Source: Deltaproteobacteria bacterium
Lineage (GTDB): Bacteria > Desulfobacterota_B > Binatia > UBA9968
Direction of reading: 5' to 3'
Assembly: GCA_027297485.1 (NCBI GenBank)
Contig: JAPUHZ010000346.1
Span: forward strand, 1 to 46,572
DNA length: 46,572 nt
Position numbers and translations under genes: made by a program. This document shows, piece by piece, positions 10,367-41,541 of the stretch (positions are counted from its first letter, which is position 1; every line of letters begins with the position of its first letter). Under the pieces are notes generated by a model, which saw only the letters and a list, made by a program, of their open reading frames with translations, was not told the origin of the DNA and did no database searches.

Positions 10367-11116
10367 TCAGATCTCGATGACCATCCCATCTTCAGCCAAT
10401 TTGACCGATATCTCCTCTCTGCGGGCGAGCATCTCTTCTCCCATGTGGGTCAGAATGAGTTTTTTGCACTTCAGGCGGGAGAGGTTCTCTTGAATCCTCT
10501 GATAGTTCATGTGATTGGGCGTATCCCGATTGAAGAAACAGCACTCACATATGAAGAGGTCCACACCATGGGCGTGAGTGATAAAAAGGTCGGTCCAGGC
10601 GGAATCTCCGGAATAGAGGATTTGCCTTCCCTGATAGGCGACTTTAAGTCCCAGAGAGATCTCACGCACCTGATGAGGTACACGAAAGGGAAAGACTTGA
10701 ATATCCTCGATGGTCCTTTGCCTCTCGGGTTCTAGGACGTGAAATTGGGTTGAGAGAAGTTTTTTAGGGTCTGAGGCATCGCCGAACATGAGGTGAAAGA
10801 GATCGTTAACTCGCTCCTCGGTCCCAGGCGGGCCCGCTACCTGCAAAGGCCTGTCACGCGGATTTTCATAGATCTCATCCAGTAAAAAGAAGGGCACCCC
10901 GGCACAATGATCACCATGAAGATGGCTTAAAAAGATGGCATCCAACCGCCGCGGGTTAAATCCCGCTCGTTTCATGGCAAGTAAAGTGGTAGGGCCGCAG
11001 TCTAAAAGAAAAAGCCGATCACCGGCCTCTACCAGATAACCACTGTTATTCCTGCCCCCGCTCCCGAAGGCGTCGCCGCACCCTAAGATGTGGACTCTTG
11101 TGGGTTTTTCTGCCAT
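10367..11116 (-). CDS. MBL-fold metal-dependent hydrolase (RNase Z-like)
   Basis: The 249-residue protein is a metallo-beta-lactamase fold enzyme with HILGCGDAFGSGGRNNSGYLV at the N-terminus, DCGPTTLLAM, the metal motif SHLHGDH (His65, His67, Asp69, His70), ILYSGDSAW and CECCFF, and a C-terminal LILTHMGEEML. This arrangement is that of the RNase Z/phosphonatase-like branch. It lacks the exosite arm expected of a true tRNase Z, so it is more likely a small-molecule phosphodiesterase or similar hydrolase. It is transcribed divergently from the MarR gene at 11163. Confidence 0.85.
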   Translation of the reverse strand: MAEKPTRVHILGCGDAFGSGGRNNSGYLVEAGDRLFLLDCGPTTLLAMKRAGFNPRRLDAIFLSHLHGDHCAGVPFFLLDEIYENPRDRPLQVAGPPGTEERVNDLFHLMFGDASDPKKLLSTQFHVLEPERQRTIEDIQVFPFRVPHQVREISLGLKVAYQGRQILYSGDSAWTDLFITHAHGVDLFICECCFFNRDTPNHMNYQRIQENLSRLKCKKLILTHMGEEMLARREEISVKLAEDGMVIEI

Positions 11117-11162: not shown

Positions 11163-11642
11163 TTGCTTTTTATCTTTCACGAGCCTAAACTTCCTCCCGT
11201 GTCTATCACCAAAAACCCCTTCTTTACCCGCTACAGCACAAGCCTGTGGATTCGCTTTTTGCGTTTCAATCTTCTCTCTAACAAGAAACTCCAAGATGAT
11301 CTGGAGAGACTGGATCTCACCCCACCCCAGTTCTATGTCTTGGCGACCATCGGCTACGCCGGGAGGCTTCCTTTCGGTGAGATCGGTGAAAAGATGATGG
11401 TCACTGTAAGCAATCTGACCGGCATTGTAGACCGGCTGGAGCAAAAAAAATTGGTTGCCCGTGAAAGAGATGCCCGTGACCGGCGAATAGTCCGTGTCAT
11501 GCTGACAGGAAAGGGAAACAAACTTTACAAAAGTACCATCCCTCTTTTTGAGAAGAGCGTCGCGCAGTTCTTCTCCCCCCTAAATGAAATGCAACAAAAA
11601 GAGCTCGCCGCCCTTTTACGCAAATTGATCCGGATTTCCTGA
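11163..11642 (+). CDS. MarR family transcriptional regulator
   Basis: The protein has up to 159 residues with the MarR winged-helix layout: an N-terminal dimerisation helix (SLWIRFLRFNLLSNKKL), LDLTPPQFYVLATIGYAG, the recognition region GEIGEKMMVTVSNLTGIVDRLEQKKLV, and the wing RERDARDRRIVRVMLTGKG. A C-terminal dimerisation helix follows. Translation may start at TTG 11163 or at GTG 11199; neither has a strong ribosome site. It lies 91 bases upstream of the five-gene operon beginning at 11734. A promoter with a 12-bp palindrome sits between them, so it probably regulates that operon. Confidence 0.88.
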   Translation: MLFIFHEPKLPPVSITKNPFFTRYSTSLWIRFLRFNLLSNKKLQDDLERLDLTPPQFYVLATIGYAGRLPFGEIGEKMMVTVSNLTGIVDRLEQKKLVARERDARDRRIVRVMLTGKGNKLYKSTIPLFEKSVAQFFSPLNEMQQKELAALLRKLIRIS

Positions 11643-11733: not shown

Positions 11734-12954
11734 ATGAAAGAAGGAGATAAGAGCCTGGGACTCGAACGGGTAAAAAAGTGGCTCTACGCCAAGGGGCTGG
11801 AGGAGCGAGGCACCGGATGCGTCCTGTGCGGTTCTTGTTACGGTCACGGGCCGGTCAATCCAATGGAGGACGAGCCTGGTCCTAAAACCAAATGTCCCCC
11901 CTATGAGTTCTATCGCTTCCAGCGCTTCACTCCTAAGTCACGCTGGCTCATGTCCCAGCGCGTCTTTCATGGTCTAGACTCCATTACTCCTGAACTGAAA
12001 GAGATCATTTACACCTGTACGACCTGTCTCATGTGCCAGGAGATCTGCGGGGTACGTAATGACGGCTATGGTCCTTGGGATATTACTGTCGCGATGCGTG
12101 AGGAGATTACGGAGAAAGAAGGGCCATTGGAAGCCCATCGTCCGCTCTTGGAGGGGCTGAAGCTCCACAACAACCCCTGGGCTCAACCCAAGAGGGAGCG
12201 CGGGCAGTGGGCCAAGGACTTGGGACTACAAAAGTTGGGTGAGAAAAAGGCTCCCACTCTTCTCTTTGCCGGCTGCTCTGCGGATCAGCCGAGCGGCAGA
12301 GCAGCAGCCACTGCTCTGGCCAAGGTTATGAAACGGGCCGGAGAGGATTTCGCCATTTTGGGAGAGGAGGAGAGGTGCTGTGGTCTCTATGCTCATGATC
12401 TTGGCTTCCGCAGAGAGTACCATCGCTTGGAAGAAGAAAATCTGCAGGCAGTCAGGAAGGCCGGGGTCAAAAGGATTGTAATTGCCTGTGGGAGTTGCCG
12501 GCGGATTTGGAAGGACTACCCCAAGGAAGAAATGCAGGGGATCGAGGTGTTGCATGGTGTGGAATACATAGAGAAGCTTTTGCAGGAGGGACGGCTTAAG
12601 TTTACCAAGACCATCAAGAGAAAAATCACCTACCACGATCCCTGTCACCTGGGAAGGGGCTGTGGCGTCTATGAATCCCCCAGAAATATCCTCCGCTCTA
12701 TTCCCGGCGTCGAGCTGGTGGAGATGCCGCGCAACCGACGCTGGGCCTGGTGCTGTGGCGGGGGAGGAGGGGTCCCGGAGGCCTTCCCGGATTTAGCTCA
12801 GTGGAATGCTGAGGATCGGCTGCGCGAAGCTGACCAGACCGGGGCGGATCTCCTCCTCACCACAAGCGCGCTATGCTTGCGCAGTTTTGCCCATAGCCAG
12901 CAGGCCCACCTTCAAACTCAAGAGCTACTCGAATTCATTTGCCAGGCGATTTAG
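11734..12954 (+). CDS. CCG-domain Fe-S protein (HdrD/GlpC/LutA-like)
   Basis: The 406-residue cytoplasmic protein has an N-terminal Cys-rich part (CVLCGSC, then TKCPPYEF; CTTCLMCQEICG near residues 98-109) suitable for one or two 4Fe-4S clusters. Two CCG domains follow (LFAGCSADQ with RCCGLYAHDLG; YHDPCHLGRGCG with AWCCGGGGGVPEAF). CCG domains hold noncubane clusters in heterodisulfide reductase or act in glycolate, lactate and glycerol-3-phosphate oxidoreductase subunits. The ferredoxin motifs are not fully canonical. It is the first gene of the operon and is followed by the phosphorylase gene after 3 bases. Its partner may be encoded elsewhere. The ATG at 11734 lacks a Shine-Dalgarno; a CTG at 11755 sits 8 bases after AAGGAG. 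Confidence 0.85.
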   Translation: MKEGDKSLGLERVKKWLYAKGLEERGTGCVLCGSCYGHGPVNPMEDEPGPKTKCPPYEFYRFQRFTPKSRWLMSQRVFHGLDSITPELKEIIYTCTTCLMCQEICGVRNDGYGPWDITVAMREEITEKEGPLEAHRPLLEGLKLHNNPWAQPKRERGQWAKDLGLQKLGEKKAPTLLFAGCSADQPSGRAAATALAKVMKRAGEDFAILGEEERCCGLYAHDLGFRREYHRLEEENLQAVRKAGVKRIVIACGSCRRIWKDYPKEEMQGIEVLHGVEYIEKLLQEGRLKFTKTIKRKITYHDPCHLGRGCGVYESPRNILRSIPGVELVEMPRNRRWAWCCGGGGGVPEAFPDLAQWNAEDRLREADQTGADLLLTTSALCLRSFAHSQQAHLQTQELLEFICQAI

Positions 12955-12957
12955 GGG

Positions 12958-13695
12958 ATGCGTAAAGAGGCCCATTTCACGCCTGAGAAGATACTCTCCC
13001 TCCTCGGGGTTAAGGCCGGTTCGCTAGCTCCCTGTGCCCTTATTCCTGGGCCTAAGGAGCGCAGCCAAATGCTCCTCGGAGCCCTGGAGAAGCCCATCAA
13101 AAATTTTTCCTTCTTGGACTATGAGATGTACACGGGGAGCCACAACGGGAAAAGGGTAACGGTTGGTAATGGGGGGCGCTATGCGCCGGATGCGGCGCTC
13201 ACAACGGAGATTCTCTGCGCCGGTGGGGTGGAGTCCCTTATCCGAATCGGGAGCTGCGGGGCCTTGCAGGAGAAGATTAAGATCGGAGATCTCATCATTG
13301 TAACGGGGGCGCTTCGCGGTGAGGGAACCACGACGTACTATGTCCCCAAAAGCTTCTCTACGGTTCCTCACCCGGAGATCGTTGGTGCCCTAACGGAGGC
13401 AGCTAAAAGCTTGAAGGTCCGTTATCACCTCGGTTGGCTCTACACCACAGACGCCCTGTTTCAGGAGACTCCGGATCTCATCGCAGAGTTGGAGCAGCAG
13501 GGCGTCTCAGGAATCGACATGGTCACGTCGGCGTTTCTCACCATCGCTCAGGTGCGCAATAAAAAGGCCGGTGCCATACTGGCCGTTTCGGATGAATGTC
13601 TGAAGGGCAAGATGGGGTTCCGCGATCCCATTTTTCTCCAGGCCGAGGAAAAAATGGTTGAGGTAGCGCTGAGAGCAATCCACCTCATGGGCTAA
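12958..13695 (+). CDS. Atypical nucleoside phosphorylase (PNP/UDP family)
   Basis: The 245-residue enzyme belongs to the NP-I family, which cleaves nucleosides with phosphate to a base and ribose 1-phosphate. Visible landmarks are LIPGPKERSQML (phosphate loop, normally GDPxR; Arg35 kept), VGNGGRYAPDAALTTEIL, IRIGSCGALQEKIKIGDLI (phosphate-binding Arg96) and VSDECLKG with the catalytic Asp. The usual EME ribose-binding motif reads DMV (187-189), so the Glu that holds the ribose hydroxyls is missing. This suggests an unusual sugar substrate. It sits between the Fe-S gene and the MtnA-like gene, consistent with production of a pentose 1-phosphate for the next enzyme. Uridine phosphorylase or MTA phosphorylase activity remains possible. 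Confidence 0.82.
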   Translation: MRKEAHFTPEKILSLLGVKAGSLAPCALIPGPKERSQMLLGALEKPIKNFSFLDYEMYTGSHNGKRVTVGNGGRYAPDAALTTEILCAGGVESLIRIGSCGALQEKIKIGDLIIVTGALRGEGTTTYYVPKSFSTVPHPEIVGALTEAAKSLKVRYHLGWLYTTDALFQETPDLIAELEQQGVSGIDMVTSAFLTIAQVRNKKAGAILAVSDECLKGKMGFRDPIFLQAEEKMVEVALRAIHLMG

Positions 13696-13704
13696 ACGGA
13701 AGAG

Positions 13705-15237
13705 ATGAAGCCAAAACAGAGTCCTCTCTTTATCCCGGCGCTCTGGGAGGGAAGCCACTTCAAGATCCTCGATGAGACCCTTCTCCCCTGGAAGATAGAC
13801 TACATCACGGTCGACGAGGTCTCTCAGGCGCTTCAGGCAGTAAAGGAAATGAAGACCCGTGCCTTCGGCCAGGTTTTGACCTTTCTTTACGCTGCGGCCC
13901 TAGTCGCACAAGGCACCAAGACAACGAATCCCGAAGCGCTCAAAGAGCGGCTCAGCCAACTGGCAGAGGAATTTACGCAGGCACGTCCCACCTTTAATTT
14001 TAAGGGGCTCGCCAGCTTCTTTTCTGAGTGGTTCCGTAAGCTTCCGGCAGGCGAAGAGGTAGGAAGCTGGATTCAAGGCAAGGCTCATGAACTGGCCGCT
14101 AGGATCATTAAAGCGAGAGAGGAAAGGGCTAGGCGCGCTGCTGAACTCTTGCCTAACCCCTGTCGGCTTCTCACCCACTGCAACATCAGCGGAGAACTCG
14201 TTGCTATAGCTCGATGCTGCGAAGAAATGGGAAAGAAGCTTTACATCATTGCCACGGAGACTCGCCCCTATCTGCAGGGTTCCCGTCTGACTGCCTGGGA
14301 GGCTGTCCAGGCGGGCATCAAAGTCTCTCTGATCCCCGACTGTGCGATTGCACAGGTCATGGCCAAGGAGGAAGTCGATGCCGTCCTTGTGGGTTCGGAT
14401 CGATCAGCCCAAAATGGCGACATCATCAACAAAGTGGGAACTTACCCAGTGGCCCTGATGGCTAAGGAATTTGGCATCCCTTTCTATGTCTTAGTTCAGG
14501 ATCCGGGCTCACTGGCAAAGGGAGACGACGTCCTTATTGAGGAGCGTCCGATTGCCGAGCTTCTCACCTTCCAAGGTCGTTCTCTGTTTCCCGAAGACGC
14601 CGAGGGGATAGGGGGGCGTTATCCAGCCTTCGACCTTACGCCTGCCTCTCTGATTTCTTCCCTGATCGGCTTCGATGGGGTATTCACACCTGAGGAATTC
14701 AGGCAGAGGTTTCAGAAGGCGTCTCCTTCGACAAAAGAGGGCAAAAAGAACCCAGAGAAATATCTCCTCCTGTACGGGATCCCAAAGAGGAACAGCTACA
14801 CCTATCTCTCTCACGCGCTTAAAGCAGAGCAGGGCCAAAGCGTCCTGGTCCCGGAGATGCGTCCAGAGTTGTGGGGCGCGCACGTGGTCGCCCGTGAACT
14901 TCTTGAGAGGAATATCCCGACGACACTCATCTCGGACAACATGATGGGCACCCTCTTCGCCCAGGGACAGATTCAGCATCTCTGTCTCTTCTACTCAGAG
15001 CTGAGCGAAAAGGGGCCTGTAGGGATCTGCGGTTCACTTCTCGCTGTGCTTTTGGCACGTACCCACGGGGTGTCCGTCGAGTTGCTCGCATCTGAAGAGG
15101 CCAAGCAGGCCCCGCTGGATCGAGACATCTCCACCTTCTTGAGTCAGAGGGTCAGCCCAGAGGGTGTCGCCATTTATCCGATTGAAAGGGAAGTGGTTCC
15201 CTGGTCTCTCTTCAAGGAGGACAAAACAGGCATCTGA
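13705..15237 (+). CDS. Tandem eIF2B/MtnA-like sugar-phosphate isomerase
   Basis: The 510-residue protein has an MtnA-like half (1-310) with ILDETLLPWKIDY, THCNISGEL, ETRPYLQGSRLTAWE, VGSDRSAQNGDIINKVGTY and GIPFYVL. It keeps the catalytic Cys159 and Asp232 equivalents of methylthioribose-1-phosphate isomerase. The RGAPAIG substrate loop is replaced by TRAFGQV. A second half (about 350-465) repeats the same fold in degenerate form: VLVPEMRPELWGAHVVAREL, NIPTTLISDNMMGTLF and THGVSVELL. It lacks the second-half Cys/Asp pair. MtnA converts aldose 1-phosphates to ketose 1-phosphates. Coupling to a phosphorylase upstream and a class II aldolase downstream (TGATG overlap) supports a similar step here. 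Confidence 0.82.
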   Translation: MKPKQSPLFIPALWEGSHFKILDETLLPWKIDYITVDEVSQALQAVKEMKTRAFGQVLTFLYAAALVAQGTKTTNPEALKERLSQLAEEFTQARPTFNFKGLASFFSEWFRKLPAGEEVGSWIQGKAHELAARIIKAREERARRAAELLPNPCRLLTHCNISGELVAIARCCEEMGKKLYIIATETRPYLQGSRLTAWEAVQAGIKVSLIPDCAIAQVMAKEEVDAVLVGSDRSAQNGDIINKVGTYPVALMAKEFGIPFYVLVQDPGSLAKGDDVLIEERPIAELLTFQGRSLFPEDAEGIGGRYPAFDLTPASLISSLIGFDGVFTPEEFRQRFQKASPSTKEGKKNPEKYLLLYGIPKRNSYTYLSHALKAEQGQSVLVPEMRPELWGAHVVARELLERNIPTTLISDNMMGTLFAQGQIQHLCLFYSELSEKGPVGICGSLLAVLLARTHGVSVELLASEEAKQAPLDRDISTFLSQRVSPEGVAIYPIEREVVPWSLFKEDKTGI

Positions 15238-16238
15238 TGAAGGCGCTAGAGCGTGAGATAGTCCATTGGGGAAAGCTTCTCTTTGAACGCAGGCTCATCA
15301 GCGGCTGGGGAGGGAACATAAGCTGCCGGATCGGGAAGGAGCGGTTCCTCATTACCGGGCAGCACGCCCCGTTGGGCTTTCTCAATCCTAAGGACTTGAT
15401 CCAGATTGACCGGAAAGGGCAACCACTCAAAAAAAAACAACAGGCCTCCAGCGAGACCGCACTTCATTTGGCAGTTTACAATGGGACCGAAGCGAAGACC
15501 GTCATCCATGCCCATCCTCCCATGGTCTTGGCCTTCTCTCTCACACATCAAAGCTTCGTTCCCCTAAGCTTTGAGGAAAAATATACCATCGGAGAAGTCT
15601 CCATCCTTCCCCAGGAGACTCCCACAGTCACCGAAACCGAAAGGGTGGTGAAGGAGCTTAGTCTTTGTCCCATCGTCATCCTCCAAGGCCACGGCACGGT
15701 CGCGGTGGGAAGGGACTTAAAAGAGGCGTTTCTTCTTACCGACCTTCTTGAAGAGGCTGTCCACTGCCAGTTTTTCAAGAGTGAGACGGACTTGGACCAT
15801 CCCGATAGAGAACCAAAGCCGCTCCCGGGTCAAGAAAGGGAACGCTATATTCAAAAAGCAGAAGGTTATATTCTCTTCTCCCGCGAGCATATGACCGCAC
15901 TCATAGAGAGCGCCAATGCTGATTCTCAGTTTCAAAGGCAGGGCAGTGAAGCCGGGCTCACGACCACATTAACGCTCCATTTGGATACCCATACGCCCTG
16001 GACCATCCATTTTGTCCAGGGGAAGATCACTCGCTTAGAGGCCGGAACTGAGGGAGAGTTTGTGATTAGCGGCAAGAGAGAGTGGTGGGAGGCTATCTTT
16101 CAAAGGCGCATCGACCCCTTCCTGGCAATGCAGCAAGGAAAACTCAAGCTTAAGCGCGGTGAGCTTTGGAAGCTCTCCCGGTGGTTTAAACCTTTTCAGA
16201 GGGCCTTTACGTTATGGCAAACGATTCCTATCAGGTAG
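15237..16238 (+). CDS. Class II aldolase fused to a C-terminal SCP2-like domain
   Basis: Residues 1-215 are a class II aldolase/adducin domain: GWGGNIS phosphate loop, SSETALH with catalytic Glu73, HAHPP (His91, His93) and GHGT (His152) as zinc ligands. The enzymes retro-aldol cleave ketose 1-phosphates, typically to dihydroxyacetone phosphate and an aldehyde. Residues from about 235 (TTTLTLHLDTHTPWTIHF, then GEFVISGKREWWEAIFQRRIDP and a Lys-rich MQQGKLKLKRG) form an SCP2-like fold, a lipid- or hydrophobic-ligand-binding domain that is not part of MtnB, FucA or Ald2. The start overlaps the isomerase stop, and the end overlaps the ligase start by 25 bases. The isomerase product is the likely substrate, by inference. 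Confidence 0.85.
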   Translation: MKALEREIVHWGKLLFERRLISGWGGNISCRIGKERFLITGQHAPLGFLNPKDLIQIDRKGQPLKKKQQASSETALHLAVYNGTEAKTVIHAHPPMVLAFSLTHQSFVPLSFEEKYTIGEVSILPQETPTVTETERVVKELSLCPIVILQGHGTVAVGRDLKEAFLLTDLLEEAVHCQFFKSETDLDHPDREPKPLPGQERERYIQKAEGYILFSREHMTALIESANADSQFQRQGSEAGLTTTLTLHLDTHTPWTIHFVQGKITRLEAGTEGEFVISGKREWWEAIFQRRIDPFLAMQQGKLKLKRGELWKLSRWFKPFQRAFTLWQTIPIR

Positions 16239-17746
16239 GTTTCTTCGTGGGCGAAATCCTCGAGGGGACCGCCCGGAAATATCCTCAGAAGGTTGCGCTC
16301 ATCTCCAGAGAGGGCGAGATGACCTTCGCAGCGCTGAACGATAGGGTTACTTATTTGGCAGGCCATCTTCAGAGTGAAGGAGTGAAGCAGGGAGACCGAG
16401 TCGGTCTTCTTTTGCCCAACTCTCTTTTTTTTGCGCTCAGCTACTATGCGACCCAGAGAATGGGGGCGGTCACCACCGTCCTGGATGCGCGGCTTAAGGG
16501 AAAAGAGCTTATAGGAGTCTTACAAGACGCCGATTTGAATCTTCTTATCACCCACAAGCGCCTCATGTCTCAAATCGCTGAGGCCCTTAAAGAATGCAAC
16601 GGTATTCCTCTCTGGGTTGTTGATGGAGAAGGGGAGCAGAGCTTTGAAAATAGGCTTTCTCCCGCCCCAACGGCTTTTGTCTCTCCGCGGCTATCCCCAG
16701 AGGACAGCGCCCTTATCCTTTACACCTCGGGAACTACAGGAGAGCCCAAGGGAGTAGTCTTGAATTACATCAACCTGACCCAATTCCCCAGGTGTATGGG
16801 CGAGATGTGCCATACCGGAGCAGATGAGGTGTTGGGCTGCATCCTGCCCATGTCCCACATTTCAGGCCCCATCTACTGCAATGAGATTGCAGACAAGGGT
16901 GGCACCATGGTGATCTTCGATCAGATCAATCCCATCATCCTGCTCGAAGGAATCCAGAGGCACCGCATCACACTATTTCACGGCGTTCCGATCATTTTCC
17001 AACTTCTCCTTGGAGTCACGAACTTGAAAGATTACGACACCCGAAGCGTTGAGCTTGCTGCCATGATGGGGGCCACAGTTCCGTTGTCGCTCATGCGTGC
17101 TTTTAAGATGGCCCAGCCCCATATAAAAATCGCTCAGGGATACGGGCTGACCGAAACCTCCCCTTTGATTACGCTCACCGAGCCCGACAAAGCTGACACC
17201 AAGATGGCAAGCATCGGCAAGGCTGTCCCGGATGTGGAGGTAAAAATCGTGGATGAGAGAGGCAAGGAACTCCCCGAAGGTGAGGCGGGTGAGATCATCA
17301 CCCGTGGGCCGCATGTGATGAAGGGCTATTTCCGTAGATCTGAGGCGACTACCGAGCGCATTCGCGACGGATGGTTTTATACAGGAGACATTGGGCGACG
17401 CGACAGCGACGGCTATTATTATCACTTGGGGCGAAAGGACGATATGATCATCACGGGCGGTCTCAACGTCTACCCGGCAGAGATTGAAAATTTACTCTAC
17501 GAGCATCCTCAGGTCCAGGAGGCGGTTGTCTTTCCCATTCCAGATGACAAGAGGGGAAACATCATTGGAGCTGTCGTTGTCCTCCGCCCAGGGGGAAAGA
17601 TCGTGGATAAAGATCTTCTCGGTTTTCTCCGCTCCAATCTGGCAAATTTCAAAGTTCCTCAGAAAATCGCCGTTCGTGACTCTCTCCCCCGGACCTCCAC
17701 AGGCAAAGTCATCAGGGACGCTTCCGCGTTGCTCTCAGACAATTAA
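16214..17746 (+). CDS. Acyl-CoA synthetase / AMP-dependent ligase
   Basis: The 510-residue ANL-superfamily enzyme activates a carboxylic acid with ATP and CoA through an acyl-AMP. Motifs are LYTSGTTGEPKGV (P-loop), GYGLTETSP, YTGDIGRRDSDGYYYHLGR, the hinge DDMIITGGLNVYPAEIE and PRTSTGKVIRD with the catalytic C-terminal Lys. It resembles long- or medium-chain acyl-CoA synthetases. The specificity is not readable. The start lies inside the 3' end of the aldolase gene, and it is the last gene of the operon. It may activate an acid derived from the aldolase's aldehyde product, or a hydrophobic ligand of the SCP2-like domain. Both are guesses. Confidence 0.92.
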   Translation: MANDSYQVGFFVGEILEGTARKYPQKVALISREGEMTFAALNDRVTYLAGHLQSEGVKQGDRVGLLLPNSLFFALSYYATQRMGAVTTVLDARLKGKELIGVLQDADLNLLITHKRLMSQIAEALKECNGIPLWVVDGEGEQSFENRLSPAPTAFVSPRLSPEDSALILYTSGTTGEPKGVVLNYINLTQFPRCMGEMCHTGADEVLGCILPMSHISGPIYCNEIADKGGTMVIFDQINPIILLEGIQRHRITLFHGVPIIFQLLLGVTNLKDYDTRSVELAAMMGATVPLSLMRAFKMAQPHIKIAQGYGLTETSPLITLTEPDKADTKMASIGKAVPDVEVKIVDERGKELPEGEAGEIITRGPHVMKGYFRRSEATTERIRDGWFYTGDIGRRDSDGYYYHLGRKDDMIITGGLNVYPAEIENLLYEHPQVQEAVVFPIPDDKRGNIIGAVVVLRPGGKIVDKDLLGFLRSNLANFKVPQKIAVRDSLPRTSTGKVIRDASALLSDN

Positions 17747-39135: not shown

Positions 39136-41541
39136 ATGTTTGATCCGATTCAATCCTCACCTGATACGCACTCAGTCCGCGGCTATTGCGCTCTCTGTAC
39201 TGCACATTGCGCCACTATAGCGACAGTTGAGAACGGTCGGGTGACCCGACTTGATCCTGATCATGACCATCCCAACGGTGGCGTGATATGTATCAAGGGC
39301 AAGGCGGCCCCTGAGCTGGTCTATCACCCCGACCGGCTCAACTATCCGCTGCGACGGACGCGACCTAAGGGTGACCCCGATCCTGGATGGGAGAGAGTCA
39401 GTTGGGATGAGGCTCTCGATGCAATCGCGTTGCGCCTGCTCACCATCCGTGAGCGCTATGGTTCCCGTGCAGTCGCCCTGGCCAAGGGGACGCCCAGCGG
39501 GACATCGGTAGAGGATGCCAGGCGTTGGCTGGACCGGTTTCTCAACGCATTCGGGAGCCCGAACTCGATCTCTACCACTCATGTCTGTAACTGGCACAGA
39601 GATACCGGATTCAGCTACACCTTTGGCTTCAATCTGCCTACTCCCGATCTAAAGCACAGCCGTTGCTTTCTTCTCTGGGGCCATAATCCTAGTTCCACGT
39701 CGTTGATCCTGGCCCACGACATCGTGGCCGCAAGATCGCAGGGCATGAAGATTGTAGCCGTAGATCCAAGGCGTGTGGGCATTGGGGGTCAGGCAGATAT
39801 CCTCCTTCAGGTGCGTCCTGGCACGGATGGCGCATTGGCCTTAGCGCTTATCCATTGCTTCATAGAGGAGGGCTGGTACGACGTAGGCTTTGTCCGACAG
39901 TGGACGAACGGACCGTTTCTCCTTCGGTGCGATACCGGAAGAGCTGTAACAGAGGCCGATCTCAGAGAAGGCGGGAGCTTGAATCGCTACCTGGTATGGG
40001 ATGAGGTGAGCAATCAACGGGTCATCTACGATCCTGTCTCTGGATGCTTTGAAAGGGACGGTGTCAGACCAGCGCTTTTCGGCAAAAAAGAGCTTCGAGG
40101 AAAACAGGGAAGGGCGATTCTCTGTGAACCGGCTTTTGAATCCCTGGCAGAGCTTTCTTCGCGCTACGCCCCTGAGCGTTCTGAGGGGATCACCTGGGTC
40201 TCTGCGGAAAGGGTCTGGAAGGCAGCCCAGTTTTTAGCCCATAGTCGGCCTGTGAGCATGTACATGTGGAACGGCGTCGGACAGCATACTAATTCGACAC
40301 AGACAAGTCGTGCCATCGCCTCGCTCTACGCCCTGCTCGGAGACATCGATCAGCCGGGGGGTAACGCCGTTTTTCCGGATGTTTCGGTGAATGCCGTTGA
40401 CGGGAAGGAATTTTTGTCCAAGGAGATGGTGGCAGAGAGGATCGGACGAGCGGAAAAACCGCTTGGGCCACCAGCTAAACCTGGGACCTGCGCCGCCTAC
40501 GATATCTTCACCGCCATCCTAGAGGGCCGTCCTTACCCTGTCAGGGGGCTGCTGAACTTTGGCTCCAATACGGTTATGTCTACCGGAGATTCCCGCAGGG
40601 CCCGGGAGGCGTTTTGCACCTTAGAGTTCGCTGTTGCAACTGAACTCTTTATGACACCGACCGCAGAGCTGTGCGACTATGTGCTGCCGGCTACGAGCTT
40701 TCTTGAAATGGCCAATCTGGTCGTAGGCTTCAGGTATCGCCCTAAAGGAAAAACGCACCTGCAATACCGGCCAGTCGTGATCTCTCCGCTTGCGGAGCGA
40801 CGCTCTGATACCTGGATCATCTTCGAGTTAGCCAAACGACTTGGCCTTGGCGATCGCTTCTGGAAGGGAAACGTTGAGGCCGGATATGCGTATGAGCTAT
40901 CCCCCAGCGGGGTCACGCTGGAGCAACTAAAAACCTCGCCGGGCGGAATCACTGTGCCCGTTACCCCACGCTATCGAAAACACGCAGAGATAAATCAGAA
41001 GGGCGAGCCGCGGGGCTTCGCCACATCGTCGCGCAAAGTCGAGTTTTACTCGCACACTTTTGCCGCCCACGGTTTCCCGCCACTCCCTGATTATGAAGAA
41101 CCGGCCATAAGTCCAGTGAGCCGGCCGGATCTCGCGGCCGAATATCCTCTGGTTCTGACCAACGCAAAATTTACGACCTTCATTCATAGCCAGCAGCGGG
41201 CGCTGCCACGCCTGCGCAAGGCATCCCCTGAGCCGACGGCCGAGATCCATCCCGAGACGGCATCGAACTATGGTATCAAAAACAAAGAGTGGATCATTGT
41301 GGAAAGCCCGAGGGGCTCCATAAGGGTGCGTGCAAGAGTGACAGAGGGCATTCTCCCGGGGGTCGTCTGTTGTCAACACGGCTGGTGGCAGCCATGCAGC
41401 GAGCTTGACTTGCCTGGCTACAACCCGTACACGCCGGAGGGCGCTAACCCCAGCAGCCTCATCGGCTCGGACCTAGCCGATCCCATCAGCGGCTCCCTGC
41501 CTCACCGCTCCTATCTCTGCCGAGTCCGACCAGCGGGGTAA
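39136..41541 (+). CDS. Molybdopterin-dependent oxidoreductase (bis-MGD family)
   Basis: The 801-residue protein binds one 4Fe-4S cluster (YCALCTAHC and VICIKG) and the bis-molybdopterin guanine dinucleotide cofactor. The Mo ligand position is a Cys in STTHVCNWHRD. Other landmarks are KIVAVDPRRVGIGGQADILLQVRPGTDGALALA, AVFPDVSVNAVDG, DYVLPATSFLEM, EYPLVLTNAKF and the C-terminal NYGIKNKEWIIVESPRG. It has no twin-arginine signal peptide and no FeS/membrane partner nearby, so it is probably cytoplasmic and stand-alone. It resembles formate dehydrogenase, assimilatory nitrate reductase and acetylene hydratase types. The reaction cannot be assigned. Confidence 0.9.
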   Translation: MFDPIQSSPDTHSVRGYCALCTAHCATIATVENGRVTRLDPDHDHPNGGVICIKGKAAPELVYHPDRLNYPLRRTRPKGDPDPGWERVSWDEALDAIALRLLTIRERYGSRAVALAKGTPSGTSVEDARRWLDRFLNAFGSPNSISTTHVCNWHRDTGFSYTFGFNLPTPDLKHSRCFLLWGHNPSSTSLILAHDIVAARSQGMKIVAVDPRRVGIGGQADILLQVRPGTDGALALALIHCFIEEGWYDVGFVRQWTNGPFLLRCDTGRAVTEADLREGGSLNRYLVWDEVSNQRVIYDPVSGCFERDGVRPALFGKKELRGKQGRAILCEPAFESLAELSSRYAPERSEGITWVSAERVWKAAQFLAHSRPVSMYMWNGVGQHTNSTQTSRAIASLYALLGDIDQPGGNAVFPDVSVNAVDGKEFLSKEMVAERIGRAEKPLGPPAKPGTCAAYDIFTAILEGRPYPVRGLLNFGSNTVMSTGDSRRAREAFCTLEFAVATELFMTPTAELCDYVLPATSFLEMANLVVGFRYRPKGKTHLQYRPVVISPLAERRSDTWIIFELAKRLGLGDRFWKGNVEAGYAYELSPSGVTLEQLKTSPGGITVPVTPRYRKHAEINQKGEPRGFATSSRKVEFYSHTFAAHGFPPLPDYEEPAISPVSRPDLAAEYPLVLTNAKFTTFIHSQQRALPRLRKASPEPTAEIHPETASNYGIKNKEWIIVESPRGSIRVRARVTEGILPGVVCCQHGWWQPCSELDLPGYNPYTPEGANPSSLIGSDLADPISGSLPHRSYLCRVRPAG

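Follow-up and report, generated by a model that had tools for sequence, protein, structure and literature searches.

The DNA stretch analysed here (the window) comprises 46,572 nucleotides of contig JAPUHZ010000346.1, from a bacterium of the Binatia, and carries at 11734-17746 an operon of five closely packed genes for a candidate nucleoside-dismantling pathway. The five closely spaced or overlapping genes described in an initial annotation of the sequence were all recovered in place on the + strand, with intergenic gaps of 3, 9, -1 and -25 bases. Two features are additions to that description: a gene for a MarR-family regulator (11163..11642, +; PF01047, E = 4.8e-17), which lies 91 bases upstream of the CCG gene and makes six genes in all, and a C-terminal extension of about 175 residues in the isomerase. 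None of mtnB, mtnC or mtnD (dehydratase, enolase-phosphatase and dioxygenase) was found among the 27 window genes subjected to family searches.

The first of the five genes (11734..12954, +) encodes an Fe-S protein with two 4Fe-4S-type motifs and two CCG domains, resembling GlcF, GlpC and TfrB (PF02754, E = 3.3e-30; PF13183, Fer4_8). It scored below the cut-offs of all 11 NCBIfam models matched, was aligned in a set of 18 sequences, and would serve as an electron acceptor.

The second gene (12958..13695, +) codes for an NP-I nucleoside phosphorylase-type protein (PF01048, PNP_UDP_1, E = 3.1e-34) with an atypical sugar site (Leu53, Arg74 and Val189). Its best matches were uridine and purine phosphorylases; the MTAP model TIGR01694 was not among the 13 families matched at E ≤ 1e-3. 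Compared with solved chains, the phosphate-site residues Gly31, Arg35, Arg96 and Ser99 and the base-site Asp212 are kept; Leu53 takes the place of the neighbour-subunit Arg, and Val189 that of the second Glu of the EMEx motif. In E. coli PNP we take the phosphate ligands to be Gly20, Arg24, Arg87 and Ser90, with Arg43 from the neighbouring subunit, and the sugar ligand to be Glu181. Val or Ile replaces the superfamily Glu in all 15 aligned phosphorylases, including those of distant relatives (outgroups, see below), and Glu occupies the position in 4/4 solved chains compared. Among the aligned proteins, Arg74 is restricted to the window's group. The sugar site is therefore unlike that of the four solved phosphorylases, and the phosphate site is mostly kept.

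The third gene (13705..15237, +) encodes an MtnA/eIF2B-like aldose-1-phosphate isomerase (Pfam IF-2B) with a fused, partial C-terminal half of Rossmann type (residues 335-510; 14707..15234, +), which nine distant relatives encode separately as a protein of about 145-182 aa. The isomerase scored 244.6 bits against the MtnA equivalog TIGR00512, below the cut-off of 279, and just reached the cut-off of subfamily NF004326 (271.7 vs 271 bits). Its C-terminal part matched 511 proteins at E ≤ 1e-3. The fourth gene (15237..16238, +) encodes a class II aldolase (PF00596, E = 1.7e-37) with a C-terminal SCP2-type domain at about residues 209-318. The residues singled out in the initial annotation, Cys159 and Asp232 of the isomerase and Glu73, His91, His93 and His152 of the aldolase, exist and are invariant in 21/21 aligned sequences of each protein, window included. 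In these families the Cys/Asp pair and the Glu with three His are the catalytic residues.

The SCP2 domain that had been attributed to the aldolase is marginal in the window protein alone (PF02036, 21.1 bits, just under the cut-off of 21.3) and is upheld by its homologues: a relative in locus L126 scored 38.8 bits, over the cut-off, and a profile of 21 aldolase homologues matched the SCP2-type chains 1wfr (E = 1.5e-4) and 2cx7 (E = 3.1e-4). The SCP2-type region could be aligned in 21/21 aldolases of the group and 7/7 outgroup aldolases. An AF2 model of the aldolase (pLDDT 85) had fuculose-1-phosphate aldolases as its closest folds, and the drd aldolase 6btd was also among the fold matches. The fold comparisons listed aldolase and MtnA-type folds; they barely covered the SCP2 part and the C-terminal half of the isomerase, for which no rows were obtained.

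The last gene (16214..17746, +) encodes an acyl-CoA ligase (PF00501, AMP-binding, E = 1.3e-84), by sequence of the FadD/OSB/feruloyl type. Its best model was subfamily PRK06187 (441.8 bits, below the cut-off of 476) and its best solved relative the feruloyl-CoA synthetase 8wev. No acetyl-CoA synthetase was present among the best 25 of 109 NCBIfam matches of the ligase or among its 17 solved relatives at E ≤ 1e-60.

Several of these matches would suit ordinary ribonucleoside breakdown, in which ribose-1-phosphate would be converted through ribulose-1-phosphate to dihydroxyacetone phosphate (DHAP) and glycolaldehyde, and the latter to glycolate, the CCG protein belonging to a glycolate-oxidase-like enzyme. 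The best matches of the NP-I protein are of the expected kind, the GlcF and GlpC models are among those matched (below cut-off) by the CCG protein, and the haloarchaeal ribulose-1-phosphate aldolase family NF053831 is among the matches of the aldolase. However, the last was matched at 51.9 bits with a cut-off of 300, and the ribose-1,5-bisphosphate isomerase model at 135.4 bits with a cut-off of 314.1; this scheme also leaves the SCP2 domain, the ligase and the link to a radical S-adenosylmethionine (SAM) enzyme (see below) unexplained. We regard it as improbable.

Recurrence of the cluster and its split relatives

Homologues of the operon genes were searched for in other genomes, and they do cluster together. 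Of 22 loci, 16 came from a scan with one genome per species and six (L083-L088) from 148 genomes of the class to which one of those 16 belongs, probably the Binatia. The order MarR, CCG protein, phosphorylase, isomerase, aldolase, ligase is kept in 22/22 loci for the genes present. All six genes are visible in 12 (one of which, L008, has the phosphorylase in two frames); contig ends truncate six (L001, L002, L005, L006, L010 and L086), the CCG gene is absent from its usual place in L013 and L014, and MarR was not detected in L003 and L085. MarR homologues clustered in 13/17 rows (16 loci and the window) and in all of L083-L088 except L085 (5/6). Over 1084 bases locus L001 shares 99.8% identity with the window, which leaves 21 independent loci. 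Within the class, the cluster was found in 21/148 genomes (isomerase C-terminal part, >200 bits), all belonging to one order, of which 35 genomes were sampled; a further genome of the class (G138) carries a fragment of the CCG gene where a contig begins. Metagenome-assembled genomes are named in 16/16 record titles, and the hosts are little-known soil and groundwater bacteria.

Some loci showed peculiarities of their own. L001 (1-9676, from a record titled Candidatus Heimdallarchaeota) matches the window (14511-15594) over its initial 1084 bases only, and the remainder has a G+C content of 0.375 (vs 0.54); it looks like a chimeric contig carrying a bacterial piece. In L003 (2761-5379) the isomerase and aldolase occupy one open frame of 873 aa; they may be fused in that genome, or a stop may have been lost through sequence error. 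A gene of about 100 aa and of unknown family, with the motif AGIILGV.ENR, follows the ligase in several loci. It was located in L007 (13112), L008 (12816), L010 (4364), L012 (8378), L083 (11114) and L085 (7968, reverse strand), and was also recognised by eye in L003 and L016; no match to the motif was obtained in the window.

When 297 genomes of the wider phylum were searched with the phosphorylase alignment, ten were matched at E < 1e-70, namely G003 and nine others, the outgroups (loci L120-L128). In 9/9 outgroup loci the run with the phosphorylase includes an isomerase of about 300 aa and, as a gene of its own, the C-terminal half, which in L126 matches IF-2B. As these parts are fused in one group and separate neighbours in another, comparison of the two arrangements suggests that they function together. 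In 9/9 outgroup loci a gene for a B12-binding radical SAM protein also lies within two genes of the phosphorylase: it directly adjoins it in six (L123-L128) and is one or two genes away in L120, L121 and L122, the copy in L122 being partial at a contig end. The outgroup runs further include an SCP2-type aldolase (7/9), an acyl-CoA ligase (6/9), an aldehyde dehydrogenase (5/9), an MMPL transporter (5/9), a LolA-like protein (5/9) and a DUF1302-like protein (4/9), the families having been confirmed by family search on the L126 copies. The last three are gene types met in envelope lipid transport. Our tentative reading is that the window operon represents a derived variant of a broader, previously undescribed pathway that dismantles a 5'-substituted adenosine. 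No published description of this gene set was found in literature searches on the DHAP shunt, ribulose-1-phosphate, class II aldolases with an SCP2 domain, or the enzyme trio with a radical SAM enzyme or ligase.

A full-length SCP2-aldolase was found in 13/297 genomes of the phylum sample, counting rows that cover the whole aldolase model (the aldolase part alone was matched in 40 further genomes). The 13 are nine of the ten phosphorylase genomes, plus G152, G303, G392 and G412.

The cluster proteins were also compared with the housekeeping enzymes of the same genomes, of which MtnA belongs to the same family as the cluster isomerase and MTAP is likewise a nucleoside phosphorylase. In a tree of 44 isomerases, 21 cluster proteins (fused and split) were separated from 23 canonical MtnA proteins by a 100/100 branch, although the bootstrap is not fully settled and L120 is a long branch. 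A canonical-type MtnA (an IF-2B protein) is also carried by 15/15 cluster genomes checked in the window's class. MTAP scored over its cut-off in 133/148 genomes of the class and in 18/21 cluster genomes; the remaining three have fragments (G001 and G013) or no match (G004). In the class, the operon is thus a second set beside the housekeeping methionine-salvage enzymes. Salvage of 5'-methylthioadenosine (MTA) as the sole role is weakened there by the presence of MTAP and MtnA, and may still apply in the outgroups. The suggestion in the initial annotation that the set acts on a different 5'-modified nucleoside is favoured, because the cluster genomes carry canonical-type MtnA (15/15) and MTAP (18/21), the isomerases stand apart in the tree, and the phosphorylase is devoid of the conserved Glu.

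Co-occurrence with a B12-binding radical SAM family

The CxxxCxxC motif is kept in an alignment of eight outgroup radical SAM proteins. In the class, the family was detected in 24/148 genomes at E ≤ 1e-80 (the same 24 at 1e-100): 20 of the 21 cluster genomes, as against 4/127 others (G123 and G138, and the small drafts G139 and G140). In the phylum sample, where at most five candidates were scored per genome, it was present at E < 1e-100 in 12/297 genomes, the same ten phosphorylase genomes together with G152 and G170; at 1e-80 the count rises to 15/297 with G310, G312 and G336, at 1e-81 to 1e-83. Fisher tests of co-occurrence gave p values of 8e-20 (class) and 5e-17 (phylum sample), kinship not being removed: the class association is essentially that of one lineage, and in nine of the ten phylum genomes a single run contains the genes. 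Judged by source names, the family is also present in other phyla (Omnitrophota, Fibrobacterales and Deferribacterota). The co-occurrence of the operon with a B12 radical enzyme and the lipid-carrier type of its aldolase suggest that the set trims a greasy adenosyl adduct and not ordinary cell waste.

A different run was observed in L164-L166 (G280 contig 13 and G185) and L167. It contains two further B12 radical SAM paralogues, an aldehyde:ferredoxin oxidoreductase-like protein, two ketoacyl synthases, a protein that by eye is polyketide-cyclase-like, and a glycyl radical enzyme with its activase; part of the gene identities in L164-L169 were assigned by eye. The run in L164-L167 looks like an anaerobic aromatic polyketide cluster.

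Proposed pathway and its alternatives

A pathway of six steps is proposed. A 5'-deoxyadenosyl compound would be made by a B12-binding radical SAM enzyme, whose gene lies apart from the operon in the window's group and in the same run in the relatives; from this compound the NP-I protein would remove the base using phosphate. The MtnA-like isomerase, with its C-terminal half fused or separate, would convert the ribose-1-phosphate to the ribulose-1-phosphate, and the SCP2-bearing aldolase would then free DHAP, so that the remaining aldehyde carries C4' and C5', two carbons added to the 5'-substituent. The aldehyde would be oxidised (by aldehyde dehydrogenase in the relatives, and by Fe-S/flavin electron transfer in the window's group) and the acid converted by the ligase to a CoA thioester. 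The middle steps follow the established chemistry of MtnA and the class II aldolases. Protein families and catalytic residues back the route from phosphorylase through isomerase to aldolase drawn in the initial annotation, and also the ligase step; the reactions themselves, their direction and the hydrophobic nature of the adduct we infer from gene content, order, conservation and co-occurrence.

The reading that we favour, tentatively and from sequence comparison, is that the substrate is a 5'-substituted adenosine bearing a hydrophobic adduct. The 5'-substituent is most likely hydrophobic because the aldolase has a domain of lipid-binding type and the ligase is of the fatty or aryl acid type; the extra salvage genes of the group and the altered phosphorylase speak for the same reading.

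Its strong rival, which we consider possible and somewhat less probable than that, is dedicated salvage of plain 5'-deoxyadenosine (or MTA) released by the B12 radical SAM enzyme and its companions. DHAP and acetaldehyde would be formed, the latter being passed on to acetate and acetyl-CoA, and a radical SAM inhibitor would be removed. The enzyme trio is the same as in published drd/DHAP-shunt clusters (PMC6079011, PMC10986504; these papers, and PMC12583986 below, are cited from excerpts), the radical SAM gene stands in the same run in 9/9 outgroup loci, and an aldehyde dehydrogenase is found in 5/9. Moreover, of the nine split-cluster genomes only G149 has MTAP over its cut-off, and four (G185, G280, G306 and G330) have no match at 1e-20; since 8/9 are devoid of MTAP over the cut-off, the set there could be an ordinary MTA/5'-deoxyadenosine route. 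Against such salvage are the SCP2-type region of the aligned aldolases, the fatty/aryl-type ligase with no acetyl-CoA synthetase among the matches listed, the parallel occurrence of canonical-type MtnA and of MTAP in the window's class, and the conserved loss of the sugar-site Glu. What decides between the two is whether the 5'-substituent is a bulky hydrophobic group or hydrogen, as in 5'-deoxyadenosine.

Besides the MTAP distribution, a number of observations weigh against a hydrophobic adduct delivered by the radical SAM enzyme. The counts for radical SAM, MTAP and MtnA come from relatives of the window's genome. The radical SAM gene of the window's group is unlinked to the operon, its product is 39-44% identical to the L123-L128 type, and the cluster genome G141 has no strong copy at E ≤ 1e-80; the proteins of L121 and L122 form another branch, with 38-42% identity to the L123-L128 type. 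The group's radical SAM genes stand instead in runs with SDR, FAD-linked oxidase, TENA-like and methyltransferase genes (13/20 loci, L140-L159), as judged from one family-tested copy each of the FAD oxidase (PF01565) and TENA-like protein and by eye for the other two; that this FAD oxidase pairs with the CCG protein of the operon is a guess. The window operon contains no aldehyde dehydrogenase, and no adjacent candidate for an aldehyde-oxidising enzyme was found for the window's own group. Loss of the Glu could mean a changed or poor phosphorylase. To our knowledge, methylation and cyclisation are the reactions so far reported for B12 radical SAM enzymes, and the adenosyl-attaching enzymes HpnH and MqnE are not B12 enzymes.

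The gene set is also looser than a single pathway would require. G149 gave no full-length SCP2-aldolase match, and 4/13 SCP2-aldolase genomes (G152, G303, G392 and G412) have no phosphorylase match at E ≤ 1e-30, three of which (G303, G392 and G412) also have no radical SAM match at E ≤ 1e-80. In L177 (377-2879; G412) the SCP2-type aldolase adjoins an acyl-CoA ligase, with neither phosphorylase nor isomerase. The aldolase-ligase pair leads an independent life, which fits a hydrophobic substrate yet weakens the claim of one obligate pathway. Finally, methionine-salvage paralogues coexist with drd clusters that have been read as 5'-deoxyadenosine salvage (PMC6079011).

A more specific form of the hydrophobic-adduct reading, which we think rather unlikely, is that the ribose of SAM acts as a two-carbon donor. 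The B12 radical SAM enzyme would couple 5'-deoxyadenosyl to a hydrophobic lipid or polyketide, the phosphorylase, split isomerase and SCP2-aldolase would strip off adenine and DHAP, and C4' and C5' would be left as CH2-CHO, to be oxidised and activated as acyl-CoA. The set could also run in the synthetic direction, a nucleoside being built from acid, DHAP and base. Phosphorylases, isomerases and aldolases are reversible, and in L121 the set shares one run with two ketoacyl synthases, a cyclase, a polyketide-cyclase-like protein, an SDR, an amidohydrolase and AcpS. Synthesis would, however, need an acyl-CoA reductase at the aldehyde step, and the run encodes an aldehyde dehydrogenase-family protein (L126 copy), an enzyme type that is normally oxidative; this direction is very unlikely.

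Adenosylhopane was likewise considered as the substrate, in which case the HpnH product would be shortened to a C32 hopanoid aldehyde and this turned into the acid and its CoA ester. Diploptene receives 5'-deoxyadenosyl from HpnH, and the adenine is taken off by HpnG (PMC12583986), so that the logic of bacteriohopanepolyol side-chain formation, a radical SAM enzyme attaching adenosyl to a lipid and a phosphorylase trimming it, is the one proposed here; such a substrate would account for the lipid-binding aldolase and for a two-carbon remnant on a lipid, and the phosphorylase weakly matches the HpnG model (31.5 bits). The cut-off of that model is 187.1 bits, however, the present radical SAM family has a B12-binding domain, and the excerpt of PMC12583986 names no isomerase or aldolase step. 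Because HpnH scored over its cut-off in only 2/15 cluster genomes (drafts), adenosylhopane was dropped as a general substrate, and we give it hardly any credence.

The absence of mtnK, pointed out in the initial annotation, is no novelty: a phosphorylase (MtnP) version of the DHAP shunt (PMC10986504) and phosphorylase-isomerase-aldolase clusters in other phyla (PMC6079011) have been published. In the drd/DHAP-shunt systems, with which comparison was made by description, a phosphorylase or kinase, an MtnA-type isomerase and a class II aldolase are clustered and are expected to yield DHAP and an aldehyde. The window set has the same three genes adjoining, with their catalytic residues. It differs in the SCP2-type domain of the aldolase, the extra isomerase half, a non-MTAP phosphorylase devoid of the sugar-site Glu, and the accompanying acyl-CoA ligase, CCG protein or aldehyde dehydrogenase, and B12 radical SAM family. 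The Streptomyces fluorometabolite route, mentioned in PMC6079011, also takes a 5'-modified adenosine (fluoro-deoxyadenosine) to DHAP and an aldehyde (fluoroacetaldehyde), with a small substituent.

The present set thus adds a split or fused isomerase, an aldolase with a lipid domain and a CoA ligase to the known three-step route, and suggests that the substrate is probably supplied by a B12 radical SAM enzyme. If that substrate is an adduct, the building of lipids or polyketides would draw carbon from the ribose of SAM; if it is plain 5'-deoxyadenosine, radical SAM gene clusters would be seen to bring the disposal of their own by-product.

Other genes in the window

An MBL-fold hydrolase gene (10367-11116, -) is divergent from the operon. 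Its product is RNase Z-like, with scores below the cut-offs, and a homologue was found upstream in 7 further loci by neighbour clustering. At 39136-41541 the window encodes a molybdopterin oxidoreductase of the formate dehydrogenase/DMSO reductase superfamily, for which all 21 NCBIfam scores were far under the cut-offs.

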